NCBI GenBank assembly: GCA_017937385.1
Contig: JAGBDR010000002.1
Location: 1 to 38,187 of the forward strand
Reading direction: 5' to 3'
DNA from: Parabacteroides sp.
Lineage (GTDB): Bacteria > Bacteroidota > Bacteroidia > Bacteroidales > Tannerellaceae
Length of the DNA stretch: 38,187 nt
Shown here: in pieces, positions 4,642-32,045 of the stretch
Position numbering within the stretch: the stretch's first letter is position 1
How the letters are laid out: the number at the start of each line of letters is the position of its first letter
Notes under the pieces: generated by a model
What the model saw: only the letters and a program-made list of their open reading frames with translations
Told to the model about the DNA's origin: nothing
Databases searched by the model: none
Translations under genes and position numbers: made by a program

Positions 4642-5289
4642 ATGTACACCATGAACAAATACCATCAACTATTGAACCGGATCATCATGTCCGGAAAAGA
4701 ACAAGAGAATAAAAAGGGCGGCATCCGTTATCTGTTGAACGAACGCTTGTGCCTTGCACCTGGTGACCTGTTGGAAATTTTCGAGGACCACAGTATCGCC
4801 CGAAAGAAATTACGTCAGGAACTCCGGCTGTTCATGCAAGGCGAGCGCAATGTGGAACGTTACCGGGAAGTCGGGATCTCTTGGTGGGATTACTGCGGAA
4901 CCACACTTATTAACAGCTATCCGACTTATCTGGAAAAGTTACCACCACTTATTGAACGTATCAATCGCGAAAAGCGCAACAGCAAAAACTACGTCTTGTT
5001 TCTTGGCTCTACCGATGCCGAAAGCAACCAAGCCCCCTGCCTGAGCCTCGTGCAGTTCCAAATAGACAGCGGAGAACTGGTCCTGTCGGCCTACCAGCGC
5101 AGCAGCGATGCCAATTTGGGGCTACCCGCTGATCTTTATCATCTCTATTTGATGGCCCGGCAAATCGACCTGCCTTTGAAATCCATTACCCTCAATTTAG
5201 GCAATGTCCACATCTACAAGAACAACTTGGAACGTACCAGTACCCTACTTGACGGAAAAGAAGGGGTACGTTTTGACCTCAATGTTTAA
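4642..5289 (+). CDS. Divergent thymidylate-synthase-fold protein, possibly dCMP-type
   Basis: This aligns by eye along most of the thymidylate synthase fold. KKLRQELRLFMQGERNVERY (55-74) matches the HELLWFLQG region with its Glu (E60). APC (131-133) carries the catalytic Cys. SAYQRSSDANLGLPADLYH matches YQRSxDxxLGLPFNIxxY, and GNVHIYKNN matches GDxHIYxNH. Differences: His after the catalytic Cys is Leu, the RTGTGT phosphate loop is KKGGI, the RR pair that contacts phosphate is missing, and the Asn that selects dUMP is Asp164. The same Asn-to-Asp change marks dCMP hydroxymethylases such as T4 gp42. Length is 215 against ~264 residues in E. coli ThyA. ATG 4651 is an alternative start. It may act on dCMP or be non-catalytic; family membership is much surer than substrate. 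Confidence 0.7.
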   Translation: MYTMNKYHQLLNRIIMSGKEQENKKGGIRYLLNERLCLAPGDLLEIFEDHSIARKKLRQELRLFMQGERNVERYREVGISWWDYCGTTLINSYPTYLEKLPPLIERINREKRNSKNYVLFLGSTDAESNQAPCLSLVQFQIDSGELVLSAYQRSSDANLGLPADLYHLYLMARQIDLPLKSITLNLGNVHIYKNNLERTSTLLDGKEGVRFDLNV

Positions 5290-5387
5290 GAAACACTGTA
5301 AAGCCGGTGCAGCATAGATTATAGTTTTTTCATAGCGAACAAGGAGAAAAGAAGGACTTTTGCAATCCTTTTTAAAAGTAAAAGCAA

Positions 5388-6245
5388 ATGAGGAAACAAT
5401 ATTTGTCTGCCCCGCTTCCGTTTGTGGGGCAAAAGAGAATGTTCGCAAAAGAGTTTATCAAAGTATTGGAGCGTTATCCGGACAATGCTCTGTTTGTCGA
5501 TCTGTTTGGTGGTTCCGGCCTGCTGTCACATATAACCAAGTGTCGAAAGCCGGATTCCACTGTTATCTATAACGATTACGACAACTATTGCCGTAGATTG
5601 GAGAACATTCCACATACCAACGCACTGCTTGCGCAAATCCGTCCGTTGGCGGCATTGGCACCCCGGCAAAAAGCTTTGCCTAAAGAGACAAAAGAAACGA
5701 TCCTGCGTCTGATTGAGCAAGAAGAACGTAGATATGGATATGTGGATTACATCACACTCTCATCTTCCCTGCTCTTTTCCATGAAGTATGCGACCAACTT
5801 GGAAGAACTACGGAAAGAAACTTTCTACAACACCGTTCGAAAATGTGATTACAACCCATGCCTCGACTATCTGGATGGATTGGAGATCGTTTCATGCGAT
5901 TACAAGAAACTATTCAACAAGTATAAGGATATGCCTGATGTCGTGTTCCTGATAGATCCTCCGTATCTATCTACCGAAGTAGGCACCTATACGATGAACT
6001 GGGGACTATCCGATTACTTGGACGTATTACAAACGCTTGTAGGTACAAACTACATCTATTTCACCTCAAACAAGTCATCCATCATCGAACTTTGTGACTG
6101 GATAGGCAAAAACAACGCCCTCGGAAACCCGTTTATCGGCAGTGAAAAAGTCGAGTTTAACGCCCACATGAACTATTCCGCCCATTACACGGACATCATG
6201 TTGTACAAAAAAACAGATGAATCACTCCATAGAGAAGCCGTCTAA
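5388..6245 (+). CDS. D12-class DNA adenine N6-methyltransferase
   Basis: A 285-residue Dam-family enzyme that transfers a methyl group from S-adenosylmethionine to adenine N6. Motif X is near the start (PFVGQKR, ~11-17) and motif I is DLFGGSG at 38-44. Motif IV DPPY is at 190-193 in FLIDPPYLSTEVG. The C-terminal YFTSNKSSIIELCDWI and the final FNAHMNYSAHYTDIMLYK fit the D12 fold. No cognate restriction enzyme is nearby, so it is an orphan phage methylase, likely protecting the phage genome or affecting regulation. It is the last gene before the prophage right end, the same position as the mom modification locus in phage Mu. Recognition sequence cannot be told from this view. Confidence 0.88.
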   Translation: MRKQYLSAPLPFVGQKRMFAKEFIKVLERYPDNALFVDLFGGSGLLSHITKCRKPDSTVIYNDYDNYCRRLENIPHTNALLAQIRPLAALAPRQKALPKETKETILRLIEQEERRYGYVDYITLSSSLLFSMKYATNLEELRKETFYNTVRKCDYNPCLDYLDGLEIVSCDYKKLFNKYKDMPDVVFLIDPPYLSTEVGTYTMNWGLSDYLDVLQTLVGTNYIYFTSNKSSIIELCDWIGKNNALGNPFIGSEKVEFNAHMNYSAHYTDIMLYKKTDESLHREAV

Positions 6246-8090: not shown

Positions 8091-9056
8091 TTAATGTAAG
8101 ACAATCTGATTCTTCTCATCATCCTTCGTATACCTGAACGGATATACGATCTGGAGTTTCCGCAAGACGCTTTCCACGCCGTCGCGTTGCCTGAACTTGC
8201 CGGTGTAGCGGAAGTTTCCGAGTTTCGTGTTTTTCACGAGGATCGACACGTCGTAATAAAGCTCCAGTTTCTTGATGATATCCGTCAGCAACATATCGTC
8301 AAAGATAAAAATGCCCTCTTTCCAGGACATAAAATCGGTGTTCTCAAACGGGGAGACTTGGGAGGAATGGTCAGAGACAACGATTTGCTGACGGGGCTGC
8401 AAAGCATAGCTGCGGCTTCTGTCGTGCGCACAGGAAACGGAGACGGCACCTTCGACCAGTGAAGTGACAAAACAGTCTTCCGTGTCGTAGGCATTCACGT
8501 TGAACTTCGTCCCGGTGACTTGGATGTCCATTTTGTTTGTTTTGACCACAAACGGTTTCCCGGCGGCCTTTTCCACTTCAAAAAAGGCTTCGCCGTGCAG
8601 TTCGACTTCGCGCTTTTCCGGAGCGAAACGTTCGGGGTAGCGCAAGGTGGTGTTGGCGTTCAGCCAGACTTCCGTGCCATCGGCCAGCAAGACTTTGGCC
8701 CGCTGCCCGGCCGGAGTTGAAAACTCCTGATAGCGGACAAGCTCATCCGCTTTGCCTCCCGCATACGTCATCAACAGATAGGTCGACAGGACGGAAAAGA
8801 GCACAATCGCGGCATAGCCCGCCACTCTGCGCAAGCCGGACAGCCACACGCGCTTTTTCCGCATACCGACAAACGCGCGATATTGCCTGTCCGAAGCGGT
8901 TCCATCTTCATTCGCCATAGCGACAAGCGCCGACAGGTTTTGAATCCCGGCCGCCTCTTTCCGCAGCGTCTCATCTTCCTTCAGCTGCCGAAAAAGGATT
9001 CGCTTTTCTTCCGCCGAAATCTCTCCCGACAAATATTTTGATAACAGATCGTACAT
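8091..9056 (-). CDS. FecR-family anti-sigma factor
   Basis: A 321-residue inner-membrane regulator that holds an ECF sigma factor until a periplasmic signal arrives, usually from a TonB-dependent receptor. The first ~75 residues are the cytoplasmic sigma-binding helices (LSKYLSGEISAEEKRIL). A membrane helix spans ~77-98 (GYAAIVLFSVLSTYLLM). The FecR domain follows with FSTPAGQRAKVLLADGTEVW, LNANTTLRYPERF and GEAFFEVEK. The last ~70 residues match the DUF4974 domain (FIFDDMLLTDIIKKLELYYD). Its sigma partner is the ECF gene ending at 9943. The two would normally be adjacent but are separated here by an 813-bp unit. The GH88 gene follows 14 bp later, suggesting that it is a target or co-transcribed passenger. 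Confidence 0.93.
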   Translation of the reverse strand: MYDLLSKYLSGEISAEEKRILFRQLKEDETLRKEAAGIQNLSALVAMANEDGTASDRQYRAFVGMRKKRVWLSGLRRVAGYAAIVLFSVLSTYLLMTYAGGKADELVRYQEFSTPAGQRAKVLLADGTEVWLNANTTLRYPERFAPEKREVELHGEAFFEVEKAAGKPFVVKTNKMDIQVTGTKFNVNAYDTEDCFVTSLVEGAVSVSCAHDRSRSYALQPRQQIVVSDHSSQVSPFENTDFMSWKEGIFIFDDMLLTDIIKKLELYYDVSILVKNTKLGNFRYTGKFRQRDGVESVLRKLQIVYPFRYTKDDEKNQIVLH

Positions 9057-9122
9057 ATTTTCTTTTGCCTTTCTATCCAGTTAAACCCTCATCGCCCAAC
9101 AAACCACTATGCCACCGCCCAA

Positions 9123-9150
9123 ATAAACATTAATTAACCAGAAACAGCAA
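9123..9150. repeat. 28-bp direct repeat, copy 1 (fecR side)
   Basis: A perfect copy of 9936-9963. It begins ATAAACATTAATTAACCAGA and ends AACAGCAA. It contains the last codons of the sigma gene in non-coding form and lies 66 bp upstream of the fecR start. Confidence 0.93.
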
Positions 9151-9173
9151 TCGGAAAGCCGATGCACTTTCTG

Positions 9174-9695
9174 TCAGTCAAAATAGTCAAACTGTTCCAC
9201 AAAAAAGGATTCTATCTCTGCAATCAAACGCGGATTTTCACTTAGTGATATTCTATTGATAAGCATATAAGCACTTTTTCCGATATTCTCCTTGTGATAA
9301 AAATGTTCATCACTAAAATATGTAGCAATGAGCCTCGAATAAACCCGGTATCGCTTCGTACAACAAATATCCTCTTTAAATCCATTCGCACCAACAAACC
9401 CGAATGACGCTCTCGGATTGTCCCGGTATATTGAAAGCATGATGTTGATACAAGTATTTATGATCCGCCTGGGTTCATACGTATTGGTCATGATCCTATA
9501 TTTGTCTTTCGAAGCCGAATGATTTTTAGGATAAAACTTCACTGCATAAACATTATGCATATATTCTTCAACGCGAACAATGTATACTAATTTTGATTTT
9601 TCAGACTTGAACCGATATAACAAAACATACAAGAGGCCGCTTGAATCTCCCTTGTCCTTTTGAATGAAATGAAACGGATAGGCACTTTCAAGCAT
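9174..9695 (-). CDS. Unrecognised cassette protein (173 aa)
   Basis: I do not recognise the family with certainty. The protein is basic and rich in Tyr, Phe, Arg and Lys, with no signal peptide or membrane segment. The most distinctive stretch is residues ~95-130: a helix (INTCINIMLSIYRDNP), then ASFGFVGANG, then CCTKRYRVYSRLIATYF. This gives an alternation of strand, glycine turn and basic helix that could be a nucleic-acid or nucleotide-binding core. It starts at the A of a TAATG junction with the upstream 51-residue gene, so the two are translationally coupled. A toxin or defence effector paired with a small partner is possible, but only context suggests it. Confidence 0.7.
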   Translation of the reverse strand: MLESAYPFHFIQKDKGDSSGLLYVLLYRFKSEKSKLVYIVRVEEYMHNVYAVKFYPKNHSASKDKYRIMTNTYEPRRIINTCINIMLSIYRDNPRASFGFVGANGFKEDICCTKRYRVYSRLIATYFSDEHFYHKENIGKSAYMLINRISLSENPRLIAEIESFFVEQFDYFD

Positions 9696-9850
9696 TACAA
9701 CAGGTAAGAATATACAGGTATTCTTCTTCTTTGGAGTTCTTCTTTGGAGACATCCGACAAAACAAAATCCTTACTTGAGTCCAATTGCTTGGAATCAGCT
9801 TTATTCTTCCGTGAAGACCCGACCGGCTGTTTTAATCTAATGTTCCCCAT
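9695..9850 (-). CDS. Small cassette protein (51 aa), coupled to the 173-aa gene
   Basis: The ATG at 9850 is preferred over an in-frame TTG 30 bp upstream, because that TTG lies inside the promoter -7 box. The protein starts MGNIRLKQPVGSSRKNKADS and is hydrophilic and Lys/Ser-rich. It ends in a charged helix (SKEELQRRR) and IPVYSYLL. Its stop codon overlaps the start of the next gene (TAATG). The pattern of small first gene and larger coupled second gene resembles toxin-antitoxin pairs, but no known antitoxin motif is visible. It has its own promoter at 9878-9908. Confidence 0.6.
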   Translation of the reverse strand: MGNIRLKQPVGSSRKNKADSKQLDSSKDFVLSDVSKEELQRRRIPVYSYLL

Positions 9851-9877
9851 ATCGTTACACACCTTTGGTTGATGATG

Positions 9878-9908
9878 CAAATATACATCTTATTAATAGA
9901 TAAACAAA
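9878..9908 (-). promoter_or_regulatory. Near-perfect Bacteroidetes promoter for the cassette
   Basis: On the minus strand TTTG (9908-9905), then exactly 19 bp, then TATATTTG (9885-9878). This matches the Bacteroides consensus of -33 TTTG and -7 TAnnTTTG. Transcription should begin near 9870, about 20 nt before the ATG at 9850. Confidence 0.75.
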
Positions 9909-9935
9909 TGATATCAACACAAGACTTCCGTTTCC

Positions 9936-9963
9936 ATAAACATTAATTAACCAGAAACAGCAA
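9936..9963. repeat. 28-bp direct repeat, copy 2 (sigma 3' end)
   Basis: Identical to 9123-9150. On the minus strand it encodes the last residues LLFLVN of the sigma factor plus its TAA stop and the following bases. Confidence 0.93.
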
Positions 9964-10485
9964 CAGCGGCAAATAGTCTTTCAGTGCTACCCGCAATTTC
10001 TTCAGGGCGGTGACCATCTGGTTCTCGACCGTATTCACGGAGATTCCGAGCTCGTCTGAGATTTCCTTGTATTTGAGGCCTTCGATGCGGCTTTTGACAA
10101 AGACTTCGCGGCAACGCTCCGGCAAGGTGTCAAGTGCACGCCGGATGACGGCCTGCAACTCCTCTTCCGAGGGGTAGGAATAATCGAACGACTCCAACGC
10201 GTACAGCTTGAACCCCAGCTCCTCTTTCATCTGGTTGGTATATTCCTCTTCGACCAGCTTATGGCGCAGGAAGTTCAGGCAGCGGTTTTTCACCAACGTA
10301 AACAGATAAGTCGTCAGCATAAAGGAGATCTCGATCTCCTCCTTCCTTTCCCAAAGCGCCAGGAAGACATCTTGTACGATATTCTCCGCATCTTCATCTG
10401 CCGGCACATAGTTTTTGGCAAAGGCGAACATCTTCGGATAATACAACCGATACAGTTTCTCAAAATCTTCTTTCAGGTATAACAT
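9943..10485 (-). CDS. ECF RNA polymerase sigma factor (FecI-like)
   Basis: A 180-residue ECF sigma factor. Region 2 spans ~5-75: FEKLYRLYYPKMFAFAKNYV, then DAENIVQDVFLALWERKEE, then TTYLFTLVKNRCLNFLRHK. Region 4 spans ~112-165: LPERCREVFVKSRIEGLKYK, then EISDELGISVNTVENQMVTA, the helix-turn-helix that reads the -35 element. It ends LKDYLPLLLFLVN. In Bacteroidales such factors pair with FecR and turn on SusC/SusD or glycan-use genes. Its FecR partner is downstream beyond the inserted cassette, and the cassette leaves the sigma C-terminus intact. An HU-like gene lies 43 bp upstream on the same strand. Confidence 0.93.
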   Translation of the reverse strand: MLYLKEDFEKLYRLYYPKMFAFAKNYVPADEDAENIVQDVFLALWERKEEIEISFMLTTYLFTLVKNRCLNFLRHKLVEEEYTNQMKEELGFKLYALESFDYSYPSEEELQAVIRRALDTLPERCREVFVKSRIEGLKYKEISDELGISVNTVENQMVTALKKLRVALKDYLPLLLFLVN

Positions 10486-28972: not shown

Positions 28973-28980
28973 GAGGGAGA

Positions 28981-29037
28981 TTTATGATTTTTGATTTATG
29001 ATTTATGAATGAATTGTCAATTCTCAATTGTCAATTG
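28981..29037. repeat. TGATTTA and AATTGTC tracts at the GH3 gene end
   Basis: Tandem TTTATGATTT-type copies at 28981-29008 are followed by AATTGTC copies at 29012-29037. The second tract reaches into the GH3 gene and provides its last codons (ATT GAC AAT TGA). Confidence 0.85.
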
Positions 29038-32017: not shown

Positions 32018-32045
32018 TCTGATTTATGATTTTTGATTTATGATT
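32018..32045. repeat. TGATTTATGAT tract at the GH3 gene start
   Basis: GATTTATGATTTTTGATTTA, then TGAT, repeated next to the GH3 start codon. Same family as 28981-29008 and 34063-34093. Confidence 0.8.

Follow-up and report, generated by a model that had tools for sequence, protein, structure and literature searches.

Sites of the dif type are 28 bp long, and the dif modules of Acinetobacter carry toxin-antitoxin (TA) genes. Panacea antitoxins are described, in the portions of two reports consulted here, as pairing with many toxins (PMC8832971, PMC10440598). A term search of the accessible text of these reports returned no occurrence of "Bacteroid" in either, and none of "acetyltransferase" or "GNAT" in PMC8832971. 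The accessible portion of the literature on Bacteroides prophages, toxin-antitoxin systems, Panacea, capsule loci and morons yielded no description of the module reported below. Our literature searches also returned no 28-bp target site duplication in Bacteroides and no paper that mentions DUF6934. Here we describe a compact two-gene module that entered a sigma-fecR locus of Parabacteroides, and how it compares with these systems.

Results

Organization of the locus

The window analyzed here is the whole stretch of 38,187 bp from a Parabacteroides sp. (positions 1 to 38,187 of contig JAGBDR010000002.1, assembly GCA_017937385.1), and window coordinates refer to it. The original prediction, made from the letters of this DNA, held that perfect 28-bp repeats frame an 813-bp unit between an ECF sigma factor gene and its fecR gene, and we confirmed both copies. 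The features of the locus are as follows.

9943..10485, minus strand: ECF sigma factor gene of the host (TIGR02985), coding end intact
9936..9963, no strand assigned: left 28-bp repeat copy, made up of the sigma gene's final six sense codons, the stop and 7 bp
9151..9935, minus strand: unique insert, 785 bp, 36.8% G+C
9878..9908, minus strand: module promoter, TTTG-19 nt-TATATTTG, read from the sequence
9695..9850, minus strand: ORF1, the first gene, 51 aa from MGNIR, putative antitoxin or regulator
9174..9695, minus strand: second gene, 173 aa, putative toxin or anti-phage effector, possibly a distant DUF6934 relative
9139..9173, minus strand: hairpin across the right junction, 3' arm mostly repeat copy, 5' arm insert
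9123..9150, no strand assigned: right 28-bp repeat copy, continuing into the fecR leader
8091..9056, minus strand: fecR anti-sigma gene of the host (PF04773 and PF16344)

The two copies of the direct repeat, ATAAACATTAATTAACCAGAAACAGCAA, are 100% identical and spaced 813 bp apart. Against this exact repeat of 28, the maximum in 500 letter-shuffles of the 80-bp flanks was 11, and no third copy of the 28-mer with three or fewer mismatches is present in the host's own genome, which is 90.5% complete. The prediction placed 10 bp of duplicated sequence past the sigma gene's stop, which is correct if the stop itself is counted; otherwise, 7 bp follow it. Its account of an A/T-rich unit with its own promoter and two overlapping small genes agrees with what we find. 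The G+C content of the insert is 0.368 versus 0.486 for the sigma gene and 0.522 for fecR, TTTG-19-TATATTTG at 9878-9908 has what we take to be the Bacteroides promoter form, and ORF1 and the 173-aa gene overlap in TAATG at 9695. Beyond these two genes, the module strand of the insert holds no further ORF of 60 aa. A 13-bp tandem repeat at 9724-9749 was considered as a frameshifting duplication and rejected, since it is ordinary coding sequence in the alignment with two related copies (L004 and L005). A conserved leader (TAGTGG...GATGAGGGTTTAACT-like) at 9057-9122 precedes fecR and is also present in four relatives (L007-L010). Elsewhere in the window, an exact 25-bp repeat with GATTTATGATT-type units occurs at 28979-29003 and 32021-32045.

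Empty sites in related genomes

Sigma homologues were sought in 59 genomes, and the module is absent between sigma and fecR in all five nearest (G013, G020, G023, G021 and G006). In the window the gap between the two genes is 886 bp, which falls to 73 bp after removal of one 813-bp unit. The corresponding gaps in G013, G020, G023 and G021 are 73, 77, 71 and 70 bp, each with a single copy of the site that differs from the window's 28-mer at 2, 2, 4 and 5 of 28 positions, respectively. In the fifth homologue, G006, the sigma end differs and fecR-like DNA begins about 135 bp further. The alignment with relatives lacking the unit, suggested with the original prediction, thus reveals an empty-site allele in four of the five nearest homologues, and the expectation that deleting one unit restores a normal sigma-fecR pair holds to within a few base pairs (73 bp, against 70-77 bp in relatives). 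The perfect repeat, taken with single-copy empty sites and their 70-77-bp gaps, identifies the locus as an insertion with a 28-bp target duplication. The inserted DNA is A+T-rich and foreign in composition.

The reverse history, in which the gene pair is ancestral at this position and relatives lost it through recombination between the repeats, would leave exactly the empty site observed. We nevertheless consider it very improbable, because four relatives are empty and their genomes (G013, G020, G023 and G021) contain no match to the 173-aa protein, and because the repeat copies are identical here though the sites of G013 and G020 each depart from them at 2 of 28 positions. By the same comparison of identical copies with diverged sites, the insertion appears to postdate the divergence from these two genomes.

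Neither the left junction nor the empty site of one relative (L007) has a counterpart of the hairpin found at the right junction. Folded as DNA, this hairpin has a z score of -4.51 (0 of 200 shuffles as good), and as RNA a z score of -2.25 (6 of 200). Its inner stem is among 2 terminator-like sites in the 1.3-kb region, where 1.2 are expected, and the hairpin could be a terminator.

Distribution and conservation of the gene pair

Homologues of the 173-aa protein were found in 6 of 38 genomes of the genus and, with a 14-row profile, in 20 of 395 genomes of the class, the host's own genome being counted in both. Relatives are also carried by two Bacteroides MAG contigs (L004 and L005), in which both copies are broken. 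The small partner gene is present in close relatives too. The other class loci number 19, and in 13 of them the second gene is preceded by an ORF of 50-80 aa that ends -4 to +25 bp before it. The figure becomes 11 of 19 when L142 and L144, which are among the weakest matches and have unlike ORFs, are discounted. As a control at the same loci, a comparable small upstream ORF precedes 1 of 16 other genes of at least 140 aa. The unpaired loci include one with a 213-aa ORF in the position (L128) and one that is broken (L133); in L140 and L141 an ORF of 61-62 aa lies 56-66 bp upstream of the second gene, and L136 and L143 have no clear small ORF before it. The genes are arranged as in type II TA systems, being small, adjacent and co-directional with a short gap or overlap and conserved pairing. 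The module is a widespread, unnamed pair of Bacteroidota and their phages, comprising a protein of approximately 50-80 aa followed by one of approximately 175 aa.

Both genes carry the mark of constraint. Comparison of the two window genes with the pieces in L004 and L005 gave pN of 0.09-0.17 and pS of 0.50-0.92, and comparison of the second gene between phage contigs L102 and L103 gave dN of 0.005 and dS of 0.233. That pN and dN lie far below pS and dS indicates purifying selection on the module genes. In two alignments of the second protein, one of 28 rows and one of 22, the residues R115 and Y119 are the same in every row. Searches of plasmids with two family members gave no match, while phage records gave two (29.6% identity, E values of 2e-11 and 1e-3), one of which was found again with the L102 query. 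Part of the family (L040, L105, L130, L134, L145 and L146) is preceded by a small ORF that contains a KGERLGW-like motif, and at L105 one such ORF has a 46-aa ORF1-type ORF behind it.

Genomic slots in phages and polysaccharide loci

Eight IMG/VR contigs contain the module (L102-L107, L116 and L123). In L105 it lies next to a portal gene, and in L107 next to an endopeptidase-tail gene region. Antirepressor or repressor-like HTH genes are nearby in L102, L103 and L116, and in L104 it adjoins two tyrosine integrase genes. In polysaccharide loci the module sits between a Polysacc_synt_2 gene and an Epimerase/Polysacc_synt_C gene, which are here called CapE and CapF. A co-linear CapF accompanies 17 of the 25 CapE-like matches found in 17 genomes; of the other eight, seven lack a CapF within reach and one is not co-linear. 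The module occupies two of the 17 co-linear slots, and two others have a PIN_3 protein together with an ORF of 72-73 aa. A lone DUF6364 protein and a 23S-IVP protein fill one slot each, and the remaining 11 contain no ORF of 40 aa. G001 (L039) was not counted, since its CapE is too distant; there, the module is preceded at a distance of 172 bp by a DUF6364-PIN_3 pair and followed by CapF.

A survey of antirepressor loci found 116, of which 80 were kept and 7 inspected, one being the L102 contig itself. These revealed a YafQ pair on the L102 contig, a Panacea pair in L157 and a HicAB pair at least 2.5 kb away in L158; by eye, nothing was recognized at the antirepressor locus of L154, L155, L156 or L159. 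The HicAB pair (L158, 6972-7597) and the YafQ-type toxins (L102, 2198-2476; L103, 2194-2475) lie in the same phage region.

Links to Panacea toxin-antitoxin systems

Two loci connect the module with Panacea. At L043 (G370, of a different family in the same order), a Panacea antitoxin gene (PF13274, E value 1.9e-17) is followed after 7 bp by a homologue of the 173-aa protein (28% identity over 150 aa, E value 3e-11), the sole homologue among 140 genomes of that bacterial family. In the prophage L157 (IMGVR_UViG_2857911608_000007), ORF1 and its upstream DNA are 96.7% identical to L103 over 390 bp, through the ORF1 stop. Beyond this point the second gene has been replaced (4702-5848) by a Panacea antitoxin (E value 2.9e-23) and a 156-aa ORF, leaving ORF1 intact, and homology with L103 returns 9 bp past the stop of the lost gene, for 50 bp at 98%. 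The 156-aa ORF has no similarity to the L043 homologue. In light of the Panacea neighbor and the replacement of the second gene, the 173-aa protein is best read as a toxin or an anti-phage effector. Speaking against this are the profile searches described below, which name neither window gene, the occurrence of a Panacea neighbor in a single case, and the persistence of ORF1 in L157 after loss of its partner. The suggestion in the original prediction of a defence or addiction module fits these observations, together with the phage cargo and the TA-like pairs found in the same slots.

It is possible, if rather doubtful, that the module is instead phage-derived exclusion or defence cargo outside the TA class. 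In that case ORF1 would serve the slot as a leader or regulator, and the second gene would encode an effector triggered by other phages. The location in phages, with some copies near repressor-like HTH and antirepressor genes, would suit such cargo, and L157 keeps ORF1 after losing the second gene, as expected of a leader or regulator. However, the replacement in L157 is itself a Panacea antitoxin pair, PIN_3 pairs occupy the same chromosomal slot as the module and the L043 homologue lies directly behind a Panacea antitoxin, all of which point toward a TA system.

Domains and predicted fold

Neither window gene scored above cut-off in Pfam or NCBIfam, and no known TA domain was recognized in either by these searches. 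PADLOC likewise matched neither window gene, with one ORF1 relative reaching an E value of 0.013 to LmuA, and a PHROGs scan of the second gene gave no match. A fold comparison confined to folds ranked by Foldseek listed 50 PDB entries for the predicted model of the second protein; 41 are titled acetyltransferases, 28 of them p300 or CBP. The invariant R115 and Y119 lie on the helix after strand 5 in this model. The predicted fold resembles acetyltransferases only weakly. Searches with nine members gave no acetyltransferase family match at E values up to 1, and there was no PDB sequence match at E values up to 10.

Membership of the second gene in DUF6934 (PF22028) was rejected, as its score of 17.4 bits falls short of the Pfam gathering cut-off of 27. 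The hhalign probability of a match was 2%, 41% and 77% with alignments of 9, 22 and 28 rows and so depends on the alignment used; a distant relationship to DUF6934 is possible. One genome, G526, has eight DUF6934 matches (L046, L062, L067 and L069-L073), two of them neighboring. An ORF of approximately 55 aa lies downstream in at least four of the seven G526 loci displayed, and some of the matches have genes nearby that appear TA-like by eye.

The route of insertion

The original prediction proposed a gene-end-targeted cassette mobilized in trans. We compared the flanks of 13 other module copies (L004, L005, L036-L039, L102-L105, L107, L116 and L123, with L106 and the class-level loci left out), using minimum repeat lengths of 12, 12, 15 and 13 nt in the searches, and none has a perfect flanking repeat; at L036, L103 and L116 the sequence ends close to the module on one side. 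The best imperfect pairs, at L039 (85% over 20 nt), L107 (82% over 22 A+T-rich nt) and L037 (81% over 16 nt), are counted as chance. A filled CapE-CapF slot (L087), compared by eye with an empty paralogue in the same genome (L094), displays no duplication. When up to three mismatches are allowed, three of the 38 genus genomes contain the 28-mer: the host genome has two copies, and G013 and G020 have one apiece, which is the empty site. The search for this repeat around other cargo, which had also been suggested, found none in the 38 genus genomes. The terminal inverted repeat of the insert is 5 bp, equaled or bettered in 88 of 5000 shuffles. Neither a transposon nor a MITE is supported, the longest terminal inverted repeat being these 5 bp. 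A scan for dif-like patterns gave matches not above its control, and the host's own dif was not located.

Mobilization in trans as originally predicted is therefore not supported: the 13 copies have no perfect repeats, the other copies are intergenic or phage-borne, and the inverted repeat is short. A non-autonomous cassette could still be moved by a recombinase supplied in trans. This might be a tyrosine integrase that targets the 3' end of the sigma gene, or the XerCD of the host if the 28 bp serve as a dif-like site, as in the dif modules of Acinetobacter. Such a cassette would account for a perfect 28-bp repeat at the 3' end of an intact gene and for an insert that holds just the two module genes, and the L104 phage copy has integrase genes beside it. 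Given the lack of perfect repeats at the 13 other copies, and given that the 28-mer is sigma coding end in relatives, we consider this route unlikely. Slightly less likely again is that the insert is the remnant of a larger prophage or mobilizable element, whose middle was deleted and whose att sites are the 28-bp repeats. Phages do carry homologues, in one case with two integrase genes alongside; however, the two module genes and their promoter fill the 785 bp. What the locus records is a single insertion event, and repeated mobility is unsupported by the copies examined.

Discussion

Our findings are best explained, with moderate confidence, by a compact TA-like two-gene module, in which ORF1 would be the antitoxin and the 173-aa protein the toxin or anti-phage effector, that entered this locus once and recently. 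In the proposed mechanism, the 51-aa ORF1 product would be translated first and, through the TAATG overlap, its translation would be coupled to that of the 173-aa protein, which may be an acetyltransferase-like enzyme. Toxicity, neutralisation and anti-phage use are, like enzyme activity and the insertion route, properties that we infer for this pair. Entry would have been a single recent event in which foreign A+T-rich DNA arrived at the sigma gene's end through a break or copy event. With the ends of the event 28 bp apart, a duplication of 28 bp would result, and neither the sigma coding end nor the fecR leader would be lost. The duplication may stem from a copy-and-return error at a break. 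If the return lay 28 bp upstream of the point of departure, no dedicated enzyme would be needed to produce the 28-bp duplication.

A more ambitious proposal is of a widespread, unnamed TA family of Bacteroidota that swaps antitoxins (the small partner or Panacea) as well as slots, whose toxin is a stripped-down acetyltransferase-like protein and whose 0.8-kb cassette is inserted by a dedicated trans-acting activity that leaves a 28-bp target duplication at gene ends. Taken as a whole, we regard this combination as improbable.

These results point to an unnamed two-gene family, probably of TA or anti-phage function, common to Bacteroides chromosomes, capsule-type loci and phages. The replacement of the second gene by a Panacea pair in L157 represents a natural and concrete case of cargo exchange, and the clean 28-bp duplication, in combination with the empty sites, informs how genes that lack mobility functions of their own reach new loci.

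The module shares features with four described systems. Like the dif or pdif modules moved by XerCD, it has 28-bp flanking sites, small cargo and no recombinase of its own, whereas the window's repeat is the end of a host sigma gene and no further copies were found. Its likeness to DUF6934 loci consists of similar size, a small neighboring gene and weak profile similarity over approximately 100 residues; in DUF6934 loci, by contrast, the small ORF (42-70 aa) is downstream in 15 of 21 cases judged by eye. With GNAT-type TA systems (AtaT, TacT and others), as described in the portion of that literature consulted, it shares the gene pairing, and the acetyltransferase-titled PDB matches of the predicted model would fit the same comparison. 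The window's ORF1, at 51 aa, differs from the Panacea antitoxins in having no Panacea domain and no Pfam match, yet the module resembles the Panacea systems (PanA-PanT, SocA-like PF13274) in its two adjacent small genes and in its occurrence in both phages and chromosomes.
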